Shown here: positions 1-10,698 of the stretch, one piece after another
Numbering within the stretch: the stretch's first letter is position 1
Layout of the letters: each line of letters opens with the position of its first letter
From: Planctomycetota bacterium
GTDB taxonomy: Bacteria > Planctomycetota > Planctomycetia > Isosphaerales > Isosphaeraceae
DNA length: 22,567 bases
NCBI GenBank assembly: GCA_021778575.1
Contig: JAJYCH010000006.1
Location: 1 to 22,567, forward strand
Direction: 5' to 3'
Position numbers and translations under genes: made by a program
Notes under the pieces: model-generated
The model's database searches: none
The model's input: only the letters and a program-made list of their open reading frames with translations
What the model was told of the DNA's origin: nothing

Positions 1-1798
1 ACGACCGTGGGCTGCTCGAAATGACCGTGCCCGAGCCGAAGCCCCACTCCTTGTCGGAGAAGTGCATCTTGATCCGGACGACGGTTTCCCAGGGTTTGGG
101 GTTTGCGGACGGGTTCAGACTGGGCTCGATCAACGGTTCCAGTTTGGGCTCGACCTCGGTCGTGGGAACGTCGGGCTTATCGTTCGGGACGGGGACGAGA
201 TCTTGCTGGTAGAGCGCGGCCAGACCTCGGCGATCGAGCAGGTCTCGGATGGCGTCGGGACGGACGTAGAGTCCGGTTTCTTCGGGTCCCGACCCGAGAT
301 AGACGCCTCCCAGCGCGCCGTCGGTTGTGAACAGACCACCGCCGACGGCTCGGGGCGGATTGGCTGGCTGACTCGTCCGGGTCGTTTTCATCACGTTACG
401 AATCGAGCCCGCTGCGGGTTGCCGGCCTTCCGCGTAATGGGGAAACAGCGGGTTGACCATCACGGTTTCCAGGAGCGTCGGTTCCGCTCCGGTCGAGTCG
501 GCGACCGCCAGGAGCTTGTTCCCCCGGATCGGGTTCCATGATTCGTTGGCGACCCGCGCGGTCGGCAAGACCCGGCCCGGCTTGATCCGCAAGAGCGTGA
601 GTTCTTGATTCGTATCGATATCGACGAACTGGGCAGAGAGATTGGTCTGAGCGTGCCCCGCGATCTTCGGTTCCGGACTGCCGAACAGGTCGACCAGGAT
701 TTCCGCCTGGAACCGACCATCGATAAATCTGATCCCGCCGAAACCGCGAGACGAAGTCAAGATCAGCGTTTCCGCCGCCGTGCTCTGGATCATCGTGCCG
801 GACAGTCGAATCGTGGGCTGGCCCGCTCGCTCGACCCGGATCTTGACCAGGCTATCGCCAGGCCGGGGGATGGCCGAGGCGGGCTTTGGGAGGCTCGGGA
901 GATTCTGGGCGGGCGGGTCATCCGTTCCGTGGACGTCCTGCCCGACTCCGACGGCCATTCCTGTCCCGACGATTCCTCCGACCGCCATCAAGACGGCGGC
1001 GGTTCCTAGCTTCAGCTTTGTCATGAACATCCCTTTCATTGTGGCTTGGGTCATTGCCAGGACGGTCGGCGCGATTATTCCGGTGATCGATTTACCGAGA
1101 TTCAGGACGACGGCGGCCCGGGCGGTCGTGGTGGTCAACACATGCGGCACGGCGGCCATCGGACCTGTCAGGATCGTCATTGAGGGGTTCAACCCGCGCC
1201 GTTCGAGGCGGTCGCGGAGTTTCTGGCGGCCCCGGGCGAGACGGCTTTGCAAGGTCCCGACCGGCCAGCCCAGCCGCTCGGCGGCGTCTTGCTGGGTCAA
1301 GCCTTCGAGATGACAGGTGACGACGGCGAGCCGGAACGGCTGCGGGAGCCGGTCGATCTCTTCATGAATGGCGCGGATGACGTCGGCCCGGTCGGGAGGC
1401 TCGGAGCGATCGACCTCGGGCCGGGACGCGCCTCGCTCGCGGCGCTTCCGGCGTTGCTCCATCAACCGGTTCTGCGCGGCGACTCGATAGGCCACGCCAT
1501 GCAGCCAGGGGCCGAGCGAGTCGCGAACCCAGAGCGACCGGGCTTTCCTCGCGAGGATCAAGAACGTGGCTTGAAAGGCGTCATGAGCCGAATGTTCGTC
1601 GTTGGTGACCCCTCGGGCCACGCGGAGGACCATCGAGCCATGCCGTTCCACCAGCGCCGCGAACGCGAGTTCGGACGGGTCGCCTCGGCGGGCGGCGAAC
1701 CGTTCAAGAAGCTGGCCATCGGTGAGCATCCCGGCCGCTCCCACCGCGAACAGCGTGCGAAGGTGCCGGTTACTGGTCGCAGTCGGGCCGTGGCTCAA
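1..1798 (-). CDS. ECF sigma factor fused to membrane segment and trypsin-like (pseudoprotease) domains; 3' end outside window
   Basis: The frame stays open from about 1850 to the left edge, giving 599 residues with no stop in the window. Residues about 24-190 are an ECF sigma factor: region 2 contains 'LAFAALVERHGSMVLRVARG' and 'DAFQATFLILARKARSLW', and region 4 contains 'LTQQDAAERLGWPVGTLQSR'. This matches the planctomycete sigma class that carries long C-terminal extensions. A hydrophobic segment lies at about residues 263-287. Residues about 314-533 read as an HtrA/trypsin-like beta-barrel, but the catalytic triad is replaced (ILTSSRG where ILTNxHV is expected, QELTLLRI for DLALLKI, VGGGLF for GNSGGPLF). 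From about residue 568 a second copy appears to begin (GFGSGTVIS). I chose the TTG at 1798 because GGAG lies about 8 nt upstream and because 'LRTLFAVG' before LTDGQ is typical of the family. ATG at 1729 is the alternative. The likely topology puts the sigma part in the cytoplasm and the barrel outside the membrane. Confidence 0.85.
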   Translation of the reverse strand, partial: MSHGPTATSNRHLRTLFAVGAAGMLTDGQLLERFAARRGDPSELAFAALVERHGSMVLRVARGVTNDEHSAHDAFQATFLILARKARSLWVRDSLGPWLHGVAYRVAAQNRLMEQRRKRRERGASRPEVDRSEPPDRADVIRAIHEEIDRLPQPFRLAVVTCHLEGLTQQDAAERLGWPVGTLQSRLARGRQKLRDRLERRGLNPSMTILTGPMAAVPHVLTTTTARAAVVLNLGKSITGIIAPTVLAMTQATMKGMFMTKLKLGTAAVLMAVGGIVGTGMAVGVGQDVHGTDDPPAQNLPSLPKPASAIPRPGDSLVKIRVERAGQPTIRLSGTMIQSTAAETLILTSSRGFGGIRFIDGRFQAEILVDLFGSPEPKIAGHAQTNLSAQFVDIDTNQELTLLRIKPGRVLPTARVANESWNPIRGNKLLAVADSTGAEPTLLETVMVNPLFPHYAEGRQPAAGSIRNVMKTTRTSQPANPPRAVGGGLFTTDGALGGVYLGSGPEETGLYVRPDAIRDLLDRRGLAALYQQDLVPVPNDKPDVPTTEVEPKLEPLIEPSLNPSANPKPWETVVRIKMHFSDKEWGFGSGTVISSSPRS

Positions 1799-7988: not shown

Positions 7989-10385
7989 TCAAACCGGGTT
8001 CCTCGGCCGGTACTTCTTCGACAGAACCCGGTCGAGCTGGTCGGGGGCTTCGAGGTTCAGTTGCAGGAGCGTGCTGTTCAGCGACGCGGCGTCGTCGTGG
8101 TTTTCTTGCTGGTTGGTTGGGGCGTGCCACGAGATGAACCGCTCGTCGTTCTTGTAGTCGACATAAGCAATCGCCAGACTGTCGTCGAGATAGGCCCAGA
8201 CCGCCAGGACCGGCTTGGCGACGCTGCTGGCCAGGCGGATCGAGGGAATCAGCATCTCGATCTGCTTGTTCCTCATCCCTTGAATCGCGATCTGGCCGGC
8301 GGATTTGCCTCGGATCGAGGGGATCACCGCCAGTCGGTACGGGCCGATCGGGACGATCCGGTGGCCTCCCTTGGCTCCAGGGTTTTTCAGGGCCGAGACG
8401 GCTTCCTGCCAGAGGTCCTTCAGGTCGCCCATCGTCATCCGGATCGGGTCGGGATTGGCCAGGTAGGTCAGGTTGCGGTCGCGCTCGACGTCGGTGGCGA
8501 TCTCGTTGAAGGTCCGGGCGTTGAGCCGGACGCTGACCCGGTCGACCTCGGAATCACCTTCGGCCTCGGCTCCACCGGCGGCCATGTCGAAGTCGAGGTC
8601 GGGGTTCTCCTCGAACGAGCCGAGTTCGTGGTCGAGTTCCTCGACGACCTGGGCGGGGACGACCTTCTTGATCGCCTGGTCGAGCCGGACTCCGGCGTCG
8701 GGTAGGTGGAGCGACTCGCAGACGGCATCCCAGGCGGCTTCGGTTCCCGACCGCCGCTGACGTTGCCAGCGGGCTCGTTCGATCAACGGATAAACGACTT
8801 CGGGCCAGAGATCGGCGCTGGCGGGGTCCTTGGCGGCGGTGGTCGTGGCGTAGCCGAGCACGGCCTGGCGGAAGTCGGCCCGGTCGCGCCAGACCTCGGC
8901 CACGCGGTTCCAGCGGCCGACGAGCTGATCGTCGACATCGACCTTCGCCGGCGAGACCTTGCGAAGGTCGTCAAGCTTCTGGGGCATCAGGCCGGGGTTG
9001 AGCACCCCTTTGTCGTCGGTCAGCTTGCGCTGGGCGTAATCGCTGGCTTCCTGGAGCCGCCTGCGGGCCTGACGGAACGCCTTGCGCTTGTTCGGGGTGT
9101 CGCGGACGGTCAGGTACTTGGTCACGATGATCGGGTTGAGCAGCGGCCGGACGTCGAACCGCGATTCGAGCAACTCGACCCCTCGCTGGAGGGTTCCGTC
9201 ACCGGGTCCCTTGATCATCAGCCAGGTCATCGCCAGCAAGAGCCGGGCCCGGTCGGCGTTGAGCGGGTCAAGCGGTCGTCGGCGGAGGAACCCCTCACGC
9301 CTCGAACCGCCCAGGAGATAACCCAGGTAATGGCCGCAATAATACCGTTCATCGGCCGACAGGATGAGCGGCTCGGCCACGACATCGGCGATCATCGCCA
9401 GCGCCCGAGACCGACCGACATCGGTGGCCAGCGCCCCCCGAGGGGGCGACGAACCGGCGGTGCCGGCTGGCTTTGTCGGGTCGGGACGAAGCCCGTCGAC
9501 ATTTGTGGAGGTGACCGCCTTGACGACCGTCCGGCCCGCCGTTGATCCGGGAGTCGAACTGGCGTTCGCCTCGGCGTCGGCGAGTGTCGGGTCGTTGGCG
9601 ATCAGGTCACGAATCACGGCGGCGACGTCGGCACCCGAATGCGGCCGAGCTTCGGGGGATTTCTCCAGGAGCTTGAGGATCAGCGCTTCCAGATTCGCCG
9701 AGATCGCCGGGTTCCGGCTCCGAGGAGAGTCGGGAACCGCGTTGATATGGCTGGCGATCACCGCGAGCGTCGGGCCGGAGAACGGCGGCGAACCGGTCGA
9801 GCACTCGTAGAGCATCACCCCGAGCGCATACAGGTCGGTCCGGTGGTCGAGCCGCTTTCCCTTCGCCTGCTCCGGGCTCATGTAGTGCGGCGTTCCCTTG
9901 ATCGTGCCCGAGACCTGGGCCTCGTCGGCGATCAGGGAGAGCCCGAAGTCCGAGAGCTTGGCCTGATCGAGCGAGGTCATCAGCACGTTGGCCGGTTTGA
10001 CGTCGCGGTGAATCACCCCCTGGTGGTGCGCATAGTCGAGAGCCTCGGCCGTCTGCGCGATCACCCGGAGCCGCTCGGCCAGCGTGATCTGCCGCCAGCG
10101 CCTCGAGAAGCTCGATCCGTCGACTTCCTCCATGACGAAGTAGTACGTTCCGGCGGCCTCGCCGAAGTCATAGAGCCGGACGATGTTCTCGTGGACCAAC
10201 CGGGCGAGGATCTGCGCTTCGAGGCGGATCTTCCGGCCGACCTCGTCGCCGGTCTGCTCCTTGAGGATCTTGATCGCCACCGAGCGCTGGAGGATCGTGT
10301 CCGTGGCGCGGTAGACGGCGCCCATGCCTCCTCGACCCAGCTCCTTGTCCAGGGTGAATCTCTGGTTGAGCGTCGTCCCGATCAC
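7989..10385 (-). CDS. Ser/Thr protein kinase with long unassigned C-terminal region
   Basis: This 798-residue protein has an intact Hanks-type kinase domain at about residues 10-270: glycine loop G17-RGGMGAV, Lys39 in VAIK, C-helix Glu56, catalytic H126-R-D128-VKPAN, D146-F-G, and 'GTPHYMSPEQAKG'. A low-complexity Ser/Thr/Pro/Gly linker follows (about 270-325). The C-terminal part (about 330-798) has no domain I recognise; it includes basic helices ('KRKAFRQARRRLQEASDYAQ') and an acidic stretch near 615-640 ('EENPDLDFDM'). No transmembrane segment is evident, so it is probably cytoplasmic. I chose the GTG at 10385 because AGGAG lies 7 nt upstream and the kinase fold starts there. It is divergent from the Nudix-like gene. 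Confidence 0.93.
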   Translation of the reverse strand: MIGTTLNQRFTLDKELGRGGMGAVYRATDTILQRSVAIKILKEQTGDEVGRKIRLEAQILARLVHENIVRLYDFGEAAGTYYFVMEEVDGSSFSRRWRQITLAERLRVIAQTAEALDYAHHQGVIHRDVKPANVLMTSLDQAKLSDFGLSLIADEAQVSGTIKGTPHYMSPEQAKGKRLDHRTDLYALGVMLYECSTGSPPFSGPTLAVIASHINAVPDSPRSRNPAISANLEALILKLLEKSPEARPHSGADVAAVIRDLIANDPTLADAEANASSTPGSTAGRTVVKAVTSTNVDGLRPDPTKPAGTAGSSPPRGALATDVGRSRALAMIADVVAEPLILSADERYYCGHYLGYLLGGSRREGFLRRRPLDPLNADRARLLLAMTWLMIKGPGDGTLQRGVELLESRFDVRPLLNPIIVTKYLTVRDTPNKRKAFRQARRRLQEASDYAQRKLTDDKGVLNPGLMPQKLDDLRKVSPAKVDVDDQLVGRWNRVAEVWRDRADFRQAVLGYATTTAAKDPASADLWPEVVYPLIERARWQRQRRSGTEAAWDAVCESLHLPDAGVRLDQAIKKVVPAQVVEELDHELGSFEENPDLDFDMAAGGAEAEGDSEVDRVSVRLNARTFNEIATDVERDRNLTYLANPDPIRMTMGDLKDLWQEAVSALKNPGAKGGHRIVPIGPYRLAVIPSIRGKSAGQIAIQGMRNKQIEMLIPSIRLASSVAKPVLAVWAYLDDSLAIAYVDYKNDERFISWHAPTNQQENHDDAASLNSTLLQLNLEAPDQLDRVLSKKYRPRNPV

Positions 10386-10698
10386 CTGGATACTCCTGGA
10401 TGTACGCCCGCCGCCGCCGAGTGAATCTGTATCATAGAAAAGTCCACCGGGCAAAACAACGCACCGCGGATGCCTCTTCGCATCAATCCACGCAGCCGCT
10501 AGACTTGTCGATCCGGGTGAGCCTCAGCCGATCGGGAGAGAATCCTATCTTCAGGGAACCGAGGGTCGAATTTCCAGCAAGATTGACAGGAATGATCGTG
10601 GATGATTCCTTCACTTGACAGATTTTGCCGATAAAAGCGAAAGTACGAGCCGGACGGGCCGGCCCCGTTCAACCTGGTTCCCGTTCCGAGGTGACACT
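10386..10698. other. Divergent intergenic region, kinase/Nudix
   Basis: No gene is supported in this stretch of about 310 bp. On the plus strand, two perfect TTGACA hexamers lie exactly 32 bp apart (10583-10588 and 10615-10620), pointing toward the Nudix-like gene; neither has a good -10 at 16-18 bp. An open frame from TTG at 10615 would add 28 residues to the Nudix protein but lacks a ribosome site. Confidence 0.4.

Follow-up and report, generated by a model that had tools for sequence, protein, structure and literature searches.

What might a membrane-bound sigma factor do with a protease fold that has lost its catalytic residues? Most extracytoplasmic function (ECF) sigma factors are kept inactive by a second protein, an anti-sigma factor, which senses the signal. 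The question is raised by a gene at the left edge of a 22,567-nt stretch of DNA from an Isosphaeraceae planctomycete (contig JAJYCH010000006.1; the whole stretch is referred to as the window), in which one chain carries an ECF sigma factor, a single membrane helix and an HtrA/trypsin-like barrel. Here sensor and sigma factor would be the same protein, and the sensor an enzyme fold that is apt to become non-catalytic in this role.

One frame for a sigma factor, a membrane helix and a degenerate barrel

The gene is an open frame of 599 residues on the minus strand (2..1798; all features of the gene given below are on this strand) that opens with TTG and runs off the contig end. The TTG start is plausible because a relative, P0108, shares the residues ahead of the first Met and its record likewise begins with L. 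Matches above cut-off were obtained for sigma-70 region 2 (residues 49-109; 1472..1654; PF04542, 32.8 bits), for region 4 (residues 142-194; 1217..1375; PF08281, 44 bits) and for TIGR02937, with no further sigma region among the seven Pfam families listed, as expected of an ECF (sigma-70 group 4) factor, which has regions 2 and 4 only. A transmembrane (TM) segment follows at about residues 266-285 (944..1003), where the Kyte-Doolittle average of 1.98 is the maximum of the protein; Lys and Arg residues ahead of it indicate that the N-terminus is probably inside. A linker leads from this segment to barrel 1 (residues 308-534; 197..877), and a second barrel starts at residues 564-599 (2..109), where the contig ends, 36 residues into the domain and before its catalytic His. 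The uninterrupted frame and the second barrel at the window edge thus agree with the original prediction, made from the sequence of the window. The frame does not appear to be the product of a frameshift or assembly error, since sigma part, helix and barrel share one frame elsewhere, for example on a 7.5-Mb contig of Paludisphaera borealis. Counting duplicates, 36 of the 39 sigma-barrel entries have a hydrophobic segment of at least 1.6 on the Kyte-Doolittle scale.

Structure prediction confidently gave barrel 1 the two-lobed trypsin β-barrel fold of the HtrA/S1C peptidases, the model being poor at residues 473-482, and Foldseek matches included 7sjy (RsgI9) and 5hma (from the MamO/MamE system). 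The kinship with HtrA was visible by folding only: the window protein gave no match to PF13365 in Pfam up to E 10, and a sequence search of solved structures with barrel 1 returned nothing meaningful (best E 0.62). The relatives P0012, P0003 and P0108 do match PF13365. The His-Asp-Ser triad is absent from barrel 1. It had been proposed that the three residues are replaced by Arg, Glu and Gly, and alignment bears out the first two as Arg351 (746..748) and Glu399 (602..604); the third was misread, as a gap-free reading places Val485 (344..346), directly before GGGL, at the Ser position (RAVGGGLFTTDG vs GRSGGGLYTTDG in relatives). Aligners insert a gap at this site, one alignment pairing a different residue and another opening the gap after a nearby Ser, and barrel 1 offers no Ser in a GxSG context. 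In addition to the triad, all four cysteines of the family are missing.

Other domains were sought in the window protein. No anti-sigma domain was matched after the TM segment by Pfam, nor among the 25 of 69 NCBIfam families listed, a search that unnamed anti-sigma types could escape. The RsgI family was not among the Pfam matches, the N-terminal half of the protein being a sigma factor. No PDZ domain was matched in the window protein, whose true C-terminus lies beyond the assembly, or in its near-identical relative P0002.

The contig stops before the catalytic His of the second barrel, and P0002, the only complete version, is a probable chimera. Window position 1 is the first base of the contig (G000:C456), and the assembly (5.35 Mb, 883 contigs, 75% complete) holds no sequence to its left. 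P0002 (924 aa, from a 3,690-base contig) equals window residues 24-595, matches 573 of 574 residues over 24-597 and continues into a barrel with an intact His-Asp-Ser (HDS) triad; the final dozen bases of the window contig, within barrel 2, may be assembly noise. Residues 575-924 of P0002 are, however, identical (350/350) to P0011, one of the proteins that combine thioredoxin (Trx) with a PF13365 barrel (Trx-trypsin proteins), encoded with an intact triad on another contig of the same genome (G000:C45:7284-8507), and the switch point is a few residues at most from where the window contig ends. With that other contig the window gene has, over its final 140 bases, no more than 18 exact bases in common. 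Moreover, the tail of P0002 is of the Trx type and lacks a C-terminal coiled-coil motif seen in 20 of the 39 sigma-barrel entries, again counting duplicates, vs 0 of 124 Trx entries. The simplest account is that P0002 is probably an assembly chimera, though a recent gene conversion, which would look identical, is possible. P0002 was set aside as the full-length window gene, and its second barrel was excluded from the tree counts.

Loss of the triad is associated with sigma fusion

The barrel itself is widespread. Of 45 genomes in the same GTDB family, 44 gave a match, as did 294 of 397 genomes at class level, a count of matches that does not include architectures. The barrel genes fetched were mostly of the Trx-trypsin kind, and a sigma-barrel gene was present in 7 of the 45 family genomes, counting a frame-interrupted copy in genome G032. 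Two protein searches (36 and 81 matches) raised the total to 33 different sigma-barrel proteins, in which 37 barrels could be analysed, a lower bound given that each search scored only about 8,000 candidates. Named matches in the protein searches (Paludisphaera, Aquisphaera, Tautonia, Tundrisphaera and "Isosphaeraceae bacterium") indicate the Isosphaeraceae. A scan of contigs with the whole protein was of little use, returning one locus, in a Gemmataceae genome, that matched residues 1-286 only.

In an alignment of 173 barrels, HDS was retained in 115 of 118 Trx-linked barrels. Of the three without it, P0034 and P0037 are frameshifted as judged by eye and the third has Asp changed to Glu. The four cysteines are present in 114 of the 118. 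By comparison, HDS was found in 10 of 36 sigma-labelled barrels, one of them the suspect second barrel of P0002. A reduced set was then defined by leaving out the window's barrel 2 (too short), P0002 barrel 2, P0034, P0037, near-copies among the Trx barrels (41 of 116 retained) and seven rows in which neither a sigma nor a Trx part was recognised (P0023, P0043, P0046, P0056 and P0059, with changed triads, and L081 and L084, intact). In this set, at least one triad residue was lost in 27 of 37 sigma-fused barrels, vs one of 41 Trx representatives, the other 40 retaining the triad (Fisher p 1e-11, with related rows). The survey of planctomycete homologues that had been suggested thus shows the same kind of loss, and across the family triad loss is associated with sigma fusion. 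Among 34 near-invariant columns (median retention 33.5 of the 37 sigma-fused barrels), the catalytic Ser was retained least (15), with His at 25 and Asp at 24.

Trees of both parts suggest many independent sigma-barrel fusions. On the barrel tree, built with the triad columns removed and with ten further stand-alone barrels, all intact, omitted, triad loss required 13 changes and the sigma label 14, at least eight of which are forced by starred branches; this tree was built by a quick method and contains long rows, which draw a warning from the program. On the sigma tree, made of 31 rows with a barrel and 36 without, the barrel label changed eight times, or seven with the G032 copy, which stands twice, once under each label, counted once; starred branches there force only two changes, one probably due to that duplicate. 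With these limits, triad loss after fusion looks recurrent.

The original prediction had also proposed a pseudoprotease followed by an active protease in the same chain. This arrangement occurs in relatives, an intact and a degenerate barrel being combined in L083 and in the frame-interrupted L078 (2142-4892 on the minus strand and upstream, genome G032), where the sigma part and the barrel part do not share a frame, owing to either a sequencing error or a real interruption. By genome, G032 has two barrels (HDS and SNL at the triad positions) and G033 three (NRN, HDS and SNV). For the window gene the arrangement is unproven, as barrel 2 is cut off and P0002 is the probable chimera, and in Paludisphaera borealis both of two barrels are degenerate (HGS and RNV).

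The loss of chemistry extends to Trx modules. CxxC was present in 110 of 110 readable Trx modules of Trx-trypsin proteins vs none of three readable modules of sigma fusions (P0009, P0072 and P0108), and two more have a gap at the site; four fusions (these three and P0012) carry Trx-like modules before or after the barrel, with no readable CxxC. The two kinds of module were not lost in step, since the barrels of P0009 and P0072 keep HDS. P0108 has the sigma domain closest to that of the window protein (81% identity), and its post-membrane slot holds a Trx module without CxxC where the window's holds the dead barrel. The sigma-TM unit is greatly expanded, with 2 to 53 matches per genome at E 1e-30 in eight genomes, and paralogues in the window's genome carry, among others, carboxypeptidase-regulatory and AhpC/thioredoxin domains (above cut-off) as well as WD40-like domains (below cut-off). 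Such varied ectodomains on a common sigma-TM unit support the idea that the ectodomain is an exchangeable sensor.

A proposed transducer and its alternatives

Anatomy, predicted fold and family-wide triad loss together support a pseudoprotease ectodomain on a membrane sigma factor. We therefore favor, with a probability of roughly 0.55, a one-protein transmembrane transducer in which a non-cutting HtrA-fold domain in the periplasm binds a ligand or partner. The ECF sigma domain would be cytoplasmic and held at the membrane by the one helix, and the dead domain would bind a peptide, a misfolded protein, a polymer or a partner protease. Binding would shift the conformation or oligomeric state of this domain and so open the juxtamembrane segment to cleavage, first by a protease in the periplasm and next by a site-2 protease of the RseP type, freeing the sigma domain for RNA polymerase as modelled on IutY of Pseudomonas putida. 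A candidate for the first cut is an intact barrel, either in tandem or in trans, as in the Trx-trypsin protein of the same genome. It is plausible, as originally proposed, that the protein has to work at the membrane or be freed from it; by the analogy just drawn, release would be by intramembrane proteolysis.

Several results weigh against this proposal. Peptidase_M50 genes were present in all four genomes searched, the window's included, but also in all 14 controls, so their presence lends it little support. HDS is kept in 10 of the 37 sigma-fused barrels, and in four more Thr in place of Ser is the one change to the triad, so some members may still be catalytic; with these four His-Asp-Thr barrels counted as possibly active, 23 of 37 remain lost. 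Some non-catalytic columns are retained comparably poorly (the Cys before His in 19 of 37, one Gly in 23 and one Arg in 24), so that the active site is the centre of a loosening that reaches beyond the triad. P0023, P0043, P0046, P0056 and P0059, which have changed triads, are predicted proteins in which no sigma part was recognised; if the seven rows left out as neither sigma nor Trx are counted as non-sigma, the comparison becomes 27 of 37 vs 6 of 48. Wrong starts or split genes are likely for these five, since their barrels sit beside sigma-fused barrels on the tree (P0023 in a mixed group) and three of them (P0046, P0056 and P0059) begin, by eye, at a sigma-type membrane segment. An independent-pairs test, too small for significance, gave five pairs with a mean of 2.7 in the expected direction and 0.0 in the opposite one (median p 0.25, not significant). 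Finally, when the frame lists of five sigma-barrel loci were inspected by eye, with no family search, neither a shared neighbour nor an anti-sigma gene was noticed, and the branch of barrel 1 is long (2.47 on the barrel tree), which fits decay as well.

This long branch is one reason to consider that the ectodomain is a mere membrane tether or spacer under relaxed selection, with a decaying barrel whose triad loss means nothing for sensing. The loosening of other near-invariant columns and the unrelated ectodomains of the sigma paralogues are consistent with this explanation, which we nevertheless regard as improbable; the same paralogues are also what would be expected of an exchangeable sensor, and retention is lowest at the catalytic Ser. 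It is unlikely as well that barrel 2 resembles that of P0002 in being intact and makes the first cut in cis, giving a chain of sigma factor, pseudoprotease and active protease. The 573 of 574 residues that P0002 shares with the window protein before its HDS barrel, and the mixed barrels of L083 and L078, argue for this arrangement, whereas the identity of the P0002 C-terminus to P0011, the switch at the window contig's end and the Trx-type tail without the coiled-coil motif argue against it.

A tentative alternative is that the ectodomain is a decoy, a dead copy of the Trx-trypsin enzyme that reports on that enzyme's substrate or partner by competition or in mixed oligomers, by analogy with MamO and MamE, where in the available part of the source MamO, with its degenerate site, activates MamE-dependent proteolysis (PMC4794232). 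The barrel region of the window protein does resemble Trx-trypsin proteins (34% identity to P0004, E 7e-34), the barrel occurs almost throughout the family in mostly Trx-linked genes, and some sigma fusions also bear a Trx module, without CxxC where readable. However, barrel 1 shares only about one third of its residues with Trx-trypsin, sigma fusions occur in 7 of 45 genomes whereas nearly all carry a Trx-trypsin gene, and the HDS barrels of P0009 and P0072 mean that joint inactivation of both modules is not universal. A broader, equally tentative view is that Isosphaeraceae repeatedly captured periplasmic Trx-trypsin onto membrane sigma factors and then inactivated the enzyme modules, so that dead mimics, arising convergently, monitor a substrate or partner of the live enzyme. 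If true, this would be a new kind of one-protein transmembrane transcription switch.

Returning to the favored transducer, the value of these observations lies in how frequently enzyme modules joined to membrane sigma factors are inactivated, and this recurrence, more than the single window gene, is the surprise. The family offers a natural series of enzyme-to-receptor conversions, and in named species such as Paludisphaera borealis the domain can be compared between sigma-fused and other proteins, which makes the sensing and release of membrane sigma factors without anti-sigma factors directly testable.

We also noted features next to the gene. Between its start and the next sigma-like frame lie two adjoining heptanucleotide tandem arrays, GCTACGA x15 and ACCCGCT x28 (1985-2289). 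In a possible promoter region, these could affect transcription or allow phase variation; the exact three-unit pattern of the GCTACGA array was found nowhere else in this incomplete assembly, nor in one other genome of the genus. The frame directly upstream, on the same strand (2287-2919, minus), is a second, short sigma-like one of 210 aa as judged by eye, and at 7989-10454 (minus) a frame has a serine/threonine-kinase-like start, LGRGGMGAVYRATD, with HRDVKPANVLM (by eye, without a family search).

Comparison with known systems

The periplasmic part of IutY is an anti-sigma domain of the FecR type, as used in cell-surface signalling. The published systems compared here are described as far as the available parts of the sources go. 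IutY (ECF243) joins sigma and anti-sigma in one chain that is processed by Prc and RseP (PMC5411451; PMC8999054), and the window protein resembles it in combining an ECF sigma factor and a periplasmic part in a single membrane protein; the periplasmic part differs, being anti-sigma in IutY and an HtrA-fold domain without a matched anti-sigma family here. Planctomycete ECF sigma factors with WD40 domains likewise have a fused membrane or sensory extension, but the available text mentions no protease-fold extension for them (PMC8999054; PMC8567305), and among the matches listed from the open-licence literature we found no report of a protease-fold domain fused to a sigma factor. Planctomycete Trx-trypsin proteins share the barrel subfamily and motif order, but no sigma fusion.

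The closest parallels for the ectodomain come from other regulators. RsgI9 of Clostridium thermocellum, an anti-sigma factor whose S1C protease-like ectodomain is reported to bind polysaccharide (PMC12203970), also ties an HtrA/S1C-like domain outside the membrane to sigma control, but there the domain belongs to the anti-sigma factor, whereas here the sigma factor carries it. Another analogous protein is the subtilisin-like pseudoprotease CspC of Clostridioides difficile, which senses bile salts and switches on CspB. In the MamO/MamE system of magnetotactic bacteria, an HtrA fold with a degenerate triad, lost repeatedly and independently, works with an active partner and metal binding has been shown (PMC4794232). 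Barrel 1 shares the degenerate triad in an HtrA-fold protein, by its sequence and predicted fold, but MamO and MamE include no sigma factor and metal binding has been shown for the MamO system only.
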